NCBI GenBank assembly: GCA_001789745.1
Contig: MGAN01000004.1
Location: 1 to 64,000 of the forward strand
DNA: 64,000 nt
Origin: Candidatus Roizmanbacteria bacterium RIFCSPLOWO2_01_FULL_40_13
GTDB taxonomy: Bacteria > Patescibacteriota > Microgenomatia > UBA1406 > GWC2-37-13
Direction: 5' to 3'
Below the pieces are notes generated by a model. That model searched no databases and was not told the DNA's origin. It was given only the letters and a program-made list of their open reading frames with translations. Shown here in pieces: positions 30,931 through 32,078 of this stretch. Numbering within the stretch: position 1 is the first letter of the stretch; each line of letters begins with the position of its first letter. The position numbers were made by a program, and so were the translations under genes.

Positions 30931-30953
30931 ACTCTAACCTCGTAGGTTAGAGT
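30931..30953. repeat. REP-like palindrome ACTCTAACCT-CGT-AGGTTAGAGT
   Basis: 10-bp perfect stem; exact reverse complement of 31705-31727. Confidence 0.85.
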
Positions 30954-31036: not shown

Positions 31037-31681
31037 ATGAGAAGAGAAAAATTAGTAGAAGGTGAGATTTATCATATTTGTAATAAAAGTATTGCGAACT
31101 TCGGAATATTCAATGACATTAAAAACGGTTACAGATTTCTTTATACTTTAGATTATTATAACAATCAATTAGTAAAAACTAGCTTTTCAGATTATATAAA
31201 TATTAAAGGTAGTTATGAATATGATAATGTTCTTTTTCCCAGAGAAAATTCTTACCTAAAATTTTTGGGATTTTGTATTATGCCAGATCACTATCATTTG
31301 TTAGTAAAAATACTGATTTCTGATTTTTCAAAATATATCAGCAAAGTAGAAAACAGTTATTCGAAGTTTTTTAACGCAAAATTTAAAAGAAAAGGGCCGC
31401 TTTGGCAATCAAGATATCGTTCGGTCTGGATTAAATCAAACGAACAGCTTTTACACGTTCATCGTTATATTCACCTCAATCCAACATCGTCCGGTTTAAC
31501 CAAATATCCGGAAGAGTGGATTCTCTCTTCATACAAAGATTTTATTAAAAATCCTGAATTTCTTAATGAAAAAATAAAAGAAATTTCTATTTCCAATCCT
31601 GTTAAGTATAAAAAATTCGTTGAAGAACAGAGGGATTATCAAAAAAGATTAAAGCAGATCAAAAACCTCCTTTTGGAATAA
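31037..31681 (+). mobile_element. REP-associated tyrosine transposase (RAYT; Y1/IS200-like)
   Basis: HUH motif MPDHYHLL, KRKGPLWQSRYRS, RYIHLNPTSSGL. Confidence 0.88.
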
Positions 31682-31704: not shown

Positions 31705-31727
31705 ACTCTAACCTACGAGGTTAGAGT
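31705..31727. repeat. REP-like palindrome ACTCTAACCT-ACG-AGGTTAGAGT
   Basis: Inverted copy of 30931-30953. Confidence 0.85.
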
Positions 31728-31790: not shown

Positions 31791-31863
31791 GCCAGGGTAG
31801 CCAAGGTGGTCACGGCGCGTGTCTGAAAAACATGAGATCTCAGTTCGACTCTGAGCCCTGGCA
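31791..31863 (+). tRNA. tRNA-Phe (GAA)
   Basis: Acceptor GCCAGGG/CCCTGGC, loop CTGAAAA, T-arm CTCAG-TTCGACT-CTGAG. Confidence 0.88.
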
Positions 31864-31886
31864 CTTTTTTATGAATAAAAAAGTGC
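31861..31886. terminator. Bidirectional terminator-like palindrome GCACTTTTTTAT-GA-ATAAAAAAGTGC
   Basis: 12-bp perfect stem between convergent tRNA-Phe and tRNA-Val, overlapping both 3' ends; T-tract on each strand. Confidence 0.65.
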
Positions 31887-32059
31887 GCCTGTTTGGGTTC
31901 GAACCAAGGACTTCCATCTTACCTGCCCGACGCGCTGTTGTGCGCTTGGATGGGATCGAACCATCGACCCCTACTTTATAAGAGTAGTGCTCTACCACTG
32001 AGCTACAAGCGCTCTAGCAGGCGGGTAAGGATGGCACTCTGCCGCTGAGTTACAGGCGC
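31884..32059 (-). tRNA. tRNA-Val (UAC), interrupted in the anticodon loop by a ~104-nt insert carrying another tRNA
   Basis: 5' exon 32059-32025: GCGCCTG TA ACTC AGCGGCA GAGT G CCATC CTTAC; 3' exon 31920-31884: AA GATGG AAGTC CTTGG TTCGAAC CCAAA CAGGCGC A. Joined loop CTTACAA; acceptor, D and anticodon stems pair; one T-stem mismatch (C-A). Confidence 0.78.
31941..32012 (-). tRNA. tRNA-Ile (UAU), nested in the tRNA-Val anticodon loop
   Basis: GCGCTTG TA GCTC AGTGGTA GAGC A CTACT CTTATAA AGTAG GGGTC GATGG TTCGATC CCATC CAAGCGC A; every stem pairs perfectly; anticodon TAT. Confidence 0.88.
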
Positions 32060-32072
32060 TTATTGAAACTCA

Positions 32073-32078
32073 ATTATA
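32073..32078 (-). promoter_or_regulatory. Candidate -10 box (TATAAT) for the nested tRNA unit
   Basis: TATAAT on minus strand 13 nt upstream of tRNA-Val G1; no convincing -35. Confidence 0.4.

Follow-up and report, generated by a model that had tools for sequence, protein, structure and literature searches.

We found that an intact tRNA-Ile(UAU) gene lies within the anticodon loop of a second, resident tRNA-Ile(UAU) gene, and that comparable nested tRNAs recur across the class Microgenomatia and the phylum Patescibacteria. The explanation we favour, with a probability of about 0.72, is that small mobile cassettes carrying a complete tRNA enter the loops of cognate resident tRNA genes and take over their function, and that AUA is read directly in this organism. 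Its support comes from an empty syntenic site in a relative, the outcome of in silico excision, the agreement of inner and outer anticodons, a near-identical cassette in two families (loci L048 and L297), independent hits, the nested tRNAs that X-arm searches mostly recover, resolved remnants (L068 and L071), and the class-wide occurrence of the UAU tRNA with TilS mostly absent.

The window (the whole stretch of 64,000 nucleotides analysed) belongs to a genome of 1.04 Mb in 21 contigs, estimated to be 89% complete. ARAGORN places a minus-strand tRNA-Ile, anticodon TAT, at 31940-32012, and Rfam RF00005 matches 31941-32012(-) with 75.1 bits (E 1.3e-14), the highest score of 37 tRNAs detected with Rfam across the genome. 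All four stems are fully paired, and the anticodon loop reads CTTATAA, with A73 as discriminator; over 79 bases the gene is 97% identical to a free-standing tRNA-Ile(UAU) of G039, a genome of another family. The UAU tRNA-Ile called by the sequence-only reading is thus borne out as a canonical tRNA; that reading left the strand unstated and overlooked the split tRNA-Ile(UAU) in which the gene sits. The parts of the locus are as follows.

32073-32078, minus strand: TATAAT resembling a -10 box, located before the outer 5' half and conserved in G004.
32026-32059, minus strand: 5' half of the outer tRNA-Ile(UAU), GCGCCTGTAACTCAGCGGCAGAGTGCCATCCTTA, ending in CTTA; its orthologue in G004, G037, G042 and G047 is the first half of an unbroken tRNA.
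31922-32025, minus strand: inserted cassette of 104 bp (arm X, inner tRNA and arm Y), missing from the syntenic site in G004.
32013-32025, minus strand: left arm X, CCCGCCTGCTAGA, delimited from the sequence; it pairs with Y in the predicted fold and is akin to the X arms of other nested tRNAs.
31940-32012, minus strand: inner tRNA-Ile(UAU), intact and presumed functional, from ARAGORN, Rfam and the identity to the G039 tRNA.
31922-31940, minus strand: right arm Y, CAACAGCGCGTCGGGCAGG, delimited from the sequence; its first base is the C that ARAGORN appends to the inner tRNA.
31884-31921, minus strand: 3' half of the outer tRNA-Ile(UAU), TAAGATGGAAGTCCTTGGTTCGAACCCAAACAGGCGCA, beginning with TAA, recognized by comparison with relatives.
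31861-31886, no strand assigned: perfect 12-bp hairpin with T/A runs, a terminator-like inverted repeat shared with a tRNA-Phe on the opposite strand.

Along the minus strand the order is TATAAT, outer 5' half, X, inner tRNA, Y, outer 3' half and terminator-like hairpin. The insert splits the outer anticodon loop between positions 35 and 36 (CTTA^TAA), and removing the cassette in silico restores the older tRNA-Ile base for base, with loop CTTATAA and no target duplication. The same site is empty in G004, a member of the same genus, in which the tRNA is contiguous, syntenic and preceded by the same TATAAT, and the outer-type tRNA-Ile(UAU) is likewise uninterrupted in G037, G042, G047 and G008. 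As the outer tRNA is uninterrupted in relatives and syntenic in G004, the outer gene is native and the 104-bp unit at 31922-32025 is the insertion. The cassette arms form a GC-rich imperfect palindrome (CCCGCCTGCTAGA / GCGCGTCGGGCAGG), and within its 104 bp the cassette lacks both an ORF and an integrase gene; its ends do not form a direct repeat.

Under the favoured explanation, the cassette would have entered the anticodon loop of a single-copy resident tRNA-Ile(UAU), duplicating no target bases, in a clade mostly without TilS and tRNA-Ile(CAU), where tRNA-Ile(UAU) would read AUA directly. The old promoter would then transcribe through the outer 5' half into the new tRNA, which ordinary tRNA processing would release, and the function of the outer tRNA would be lost. 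Arm X offers too little length for a promoter serving the inner tRNA, and a promoter-like box is found only upstream of the outer half. The outer tRNA has one T-stem mismatch (C49-A65) that G004 and G037 do not have, and there are hints that its halves are a relic starting to decay. Against replacement, many outer tRNAs are still well paired and not clearly dead; these insertions may be young, and intact outer tRNAs are also easier to detect.

The same replacement would have been repeated for other tRNAs in Patescibacteria. We searched for two tRNA D arms lying 41-78 bases apart, which is closer than most neighbouring tRNAs can lie, and found this pattern in 142 of 373 genomes of the class and 56 of 153 genomes of the phylum; these counts are upper bounds, because coding sequence, close tandem tRNAs and chance also match. 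On reading the loci, nested tRNAs were seen for Ile(GAU/UAU), Val(CAC/GAC/UAC), Thr(CGU/UGU), Met, Arg, Pro, Gly, Lys and Leu, with insertion sites in anticodon loops and D loops, and other classes are also affected. Inspection of the present genome by eye revealed outer fragments around at least Arg(GCG), Leu(CAA), Leu(GAG) and Ser(CGA), and probably around a Met tRNA too. Several outer tRNAs at loci other than the present one have no anticodon or only one half. At L068 (G021) and L071 (G015) arm Y and a solitary 3' tRNA half come after an intact tRNA; these are likely to be resolved remnants from recombination between the outer and inner 5' halves.

Two observations on the clade's tRNA genes may be recorded here. 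At L274 (G135:C5:13503-14220) three tRNA-Thr layers are nested, each split after TTTTG, with the same arm sequence between them. A tRNA-Arg(GCG) occurs in the clade (L017, G000:C17:20750-20821); bacteria normally use Arg(ACG) with inosine (PMC8007984).

To compare inner and outer anticodons, the outer tRNA was rejoined by a rule blind to the inner anticodon, at loci picked for two D arms and not for an anticodon match. Every flanking pair with a left start CC and a right end GG was removed and the remainder tested with ARAGORN; this rule was adopted because unrestricted joining with ARAGORN gives arbitrary junctions and anticodons. Excision yielded a joined outer tRNA at 32 of 265 tRNA loci, against none in ten shuffles of the flanks; re-dealing the right flanks among loci gave 4-13 joined tRNAs, because conserved tRNA halves can partly match. 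Among the nested cases of the class (n = 31), the anticodon was the same inside and outside in 22 and the amino acid in 24, whereas 20,000 permutations gave 2.3 anticodon agreements on average and never more than 9. Mis-set junctions (L129, L276, L274) or decayed outer tRNAs (L070 AAU, L286 AGU) account for some of the nine exceptions. Across 22 compared pairs, 11 stem positions were unpaired in the outer tRNAs and three in the inner ones. The anticodons would agree because insertion destroys the resident tRNA, so that only a cassette with the same isoacceptor survives.

Comparison between loci favours movement of cassettes between species together with repeated independent insertion, as judged from sequence identities. 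The inner tRNA-Ile(GAU) of L048 (G014, family f1) is 97% identical to that of L297 (G170, family f9) and the X arm is the same, whereas the outer tRNAs are 79% identical. Conversely, the outer tRNA-Val genes of L303 and L305, and of L298 and L299, are 93% and 88% identical and interrupted at the same position, whereas their inner tRNAs and arms are unrelated. At L282 the inner and outer tRNA-Arg(UCU) are nearly identical except in the acceptor stem. Across the clade the acceptor stem is the arm that varies most between genomes, with 0.63 identity against 0.72-0.75 for the other arms, and its pairing is kept.

Of the alternatives, the one that survives best is repair of a break, or transformation, in which a palindrome in a tRNA loop is severed in the middle and a cognate tRNA of foreign origin is copied in under selection, with no transposition of a cassette. 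The divergence between inner and outer tRNAs is close to that between tRNAs of different genomes, as this would lead one to expect, and an empty palindrome and a nested copy that is not a tRNA also speak for it. The former, at L344 (G042:C2 near 20495), reads A^CCCGCCTGCCAAAGCCTTGTACGACGGGCAGG^T and has no tRNA nearby; at the latter, L347 (G247:C3 near 121880), an arm of this type splits a non-tRNA hairpin, AATCGGCCAAAAC...GTTCTGGCCGATT, and encloses a near copy of that hairpin. The cell would, however, have to survive with its only tRNA-Ile(UAU) broken, and the near-identical cassettes of L048 and L297, which include arm X, occur in two families and indicate that the unit moves whole. We consider break repair unlikely, and the least unlikely of the alternatives.

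Selection by itself also leaves something unexplained in the favoured explanation, as it does not account for cassettes being rarely seen outside tRNA genes, with few arm copies elsewhere. X arms vary from locus to locus, and searches with them that did not require an outer tRNA found mostly nested tRNAs: six of seven hits within the family, and most of the loci examined in a further search. Apart from the palindrome of L344 and the hairpin of L347, the exceptions were intergenic palindromes (L336, L342) and a chance match in a gene (L329). With 0-5 copies per genome, the X arm was rejected as a high-copy REP. The nested copy in L347 is a non-tRNA hairpin, and therefore tRNA rescue cannot be the reason there. 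It is possible, albeit somewhat improbable, that the cassettes are minimal mobile elements whose sole cargo is a complete tRNA and which target cognate resident loops, the cognate match being part of the insertion mechanism and not only a product of selection.

As to what moves the cassettes, our first guess, which is tentative and held far less firmly than the replacement itself, is that they travelled as single-stranded DNA hairpins mobilized in trans by HuH/Y1 (TnpA_REP-like) transposases; break repair at a palindrome, with cognate tRNA DNA brought in from outside, is only slightly less probable. Palindromic ends and insertion without target duplication, by which REP and IS200/IS605-type elements are recognized, are both found in the cassettes. 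Genes of the Y1_Tnp type were present in 15 of 18 genomes tested, none of them tied to cassette arms, and among the loci examined with their flanks only L127 has one nearby besides the present locus. As regards the fixed recognition tetranucleotide beside the hairpin that such elements would have, the base 5' of the cassette hairpin is A, G or C.

The window itself contains a Y1_Tnp (PF01797) gene at 31037-31681(+), between two ACTCTAACCTnnnAGGTTAGAGT palindromes at 30931-30953 and 31705-31727; together they look like a TnpA_REP-type unit that was inserted next to the tRNA cluster. This particular gene was rejected as the mover of the cassette, because the palindrome on either side of it (ACTCTAACCT...AGGTTAGAGT) is a different one and the gene was not found at the syntenic locus of G004.

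An improbable alternative is an intron-like or split tRNA: the insert would be cut out of the transcript and the outer tRNA made as well, with the X-Y helix joining its halves in the manner of archaeal split or intron-containing tRNAs. The outer halves do fit exactly and are mostly well paired, X pairs with Y beside the junction, and inner and outer acceptor stems are 0.53 identical, less than the 0.63 obtained when tRNAs sharing an anticodon are compared between genomes, which would suit an avoidance of cross-pairing. In the predicted fold, however, the X-Y helix continues through the junction (UUACC/GGUAA) and forms no bulge-helix-bulge; the inner tRNA already supplies the isoacceptor; and several outer tRNAs elsewhere are without a half or an anticodon. 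Only tRNA families exceed the Rfam gathering score in the window, with no group I or group II intron core, and the insert has just 104 bp. Neither a bulge-helix-bulge nor a self-splicing intron is thus supported, the helix being continuous and no ribozyme family matching. As modelled, the helix through the junction is more in keeping with a hairpin in DNA than with an archaeal splice site. Against the favoured explanation, the whole precursor reaches a minimum of -72.6 kcal/mol without the inner cloverleaf, compared with -55.8 for a double cloverleaf; co-transcriptional folding would therefore have to matter.

The sequence-only reading had regarded the gene as a sign that this organism may have lost TilS and switched its decoding of AUA. 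In the genome (89% complete) we found no match to the TilS model TIGR02432, which rings in 14 of 14 control genomes, and no tRNA-Ile(CAU). Only two CAU tRNAs are present, both matching Met types that recur in relatives: an elongator (TCATAAGCG...) and a second tRNA (TCATAATCTCCTAGACCG...) whose sequence we read as the initiator type. Because the genome is 89% complete, the absence of both genes rests mainly on the relatives. Among 57 genomes of the clade, TIGR02432 matches strongly only in G006 (103 bits, above the cut-off) and G029 (85 bits), with weak matches in 18 others that fall mostly within longer frames; the sole Ile2-like CAU tRNA among relatives is in G012, a MAG with 5% contamination. 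A tRNA with the CTTATAA loop occurs in 46 of the 57, in a single copy in each. AUA use is normal, at 493 of 1837 Ile codons (27%), or 24.5 per 1000, in window ORFs of at least 150 codons.

As the UAU tRNA occurs in so many of these genomes and a strong TilS match in only two, the switch was not made by this organism. Direct reading of AUA by tRNA-Ile(UAU) is, to judge from gene content, a trait of the clade (class Microgenomatia, Patescibacteria) and older than this strain; the earlier idea was right in outline and wrong in placing the change here. A plain, lineage-specific loss of TilS accompanied by a UAU tRNA in surroundings without meaning would suit the missing tilS and tRNA-Ile(CAU) and the normal AUA use, but the trait extends across the clade and the split tRNA around the gene is an orthologue of the native one; as a complete account this is refuted, and we give it very little weight. 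Least probable of all is a chimera of two tRNA-Ile(UAU) genes produced in assembly or binning, an idea to which a draft, metagenome-type assembly of 21 contigs lends some colour but which is largely refuted by dozens of independent genomes, from different families and classes, that show the same architecture with exact junctions and cognate pairs.

Transfer RNA genes are thought to be nearly fixed and vertically inherited. If cognate replacement has occurred repeatedly, they turn over horizontally in a bacterial radiation that ranks among the largest, the tRNA genes of Patescibacteria being replaced from within by horizontal transfer, sometimes in several layers (as at L274). Such replacement would leave datable relics and could help to explain the variable acceptor stems of the group. 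For annotation the loci carry a warning, as outer halves can pass for introns, pseudogenes or missing tRNAs.

The open-access literature, to which our search was confined (subscription papers and preprints lay outside its scope), yielded no description of tRNAs nested in tRNAs; it does describe archaeal disrupted tRNAs (PMC4390854, PMC3293823) and introns in CPR rRNA genes (PMC11270868). The tRNA-Ile(UAU) of Mycoplasma mobile (Taniguchi et al. 2013, as cited in PMC11938285) resembles the present one, as far as that citation describes it, in reading AUA with U34 instead of a lysidine-modified C34 and in that tilS is not found; here, by contrast, the UAU tRNA is common to most of a large uncultured clade and its gene is nested. 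Archaeal tRNA introns and split tRNAs (PMC4390854, PMC3293823) share the break in the anticodon loop and complementary sequences at the break, whereas the insert here holds a complete cognate tRNA, has no bulge-helix-bulge and lies in a bacterial host. REPs and REPINs, which are moved by the IS200/IS605-like TnpA_REP (PMC8266576, PMC3116915), are likewise short imperfect palindromes that leave no target duplication, but the cassettes differ from them in their low copy number, the tRNA cargo between their arms and their sites in tRNA loops.

Elements that target tRNA genes offer a further parallel. Phages and integrative elements insert in tRNA genes and carry a piece that restores the tRNA, and in both cases the harm of insertion is undone by the DNA brought in; the cargo here, however, is a whole diverged tRNA within about 104 bp, and neither an integrase gene nor a duplicated core comes with it. 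The nested tRNAs may thus be a variant on a known theme, that of elements inserting in and restoring tRNA genes, by a mechanism that could be new.
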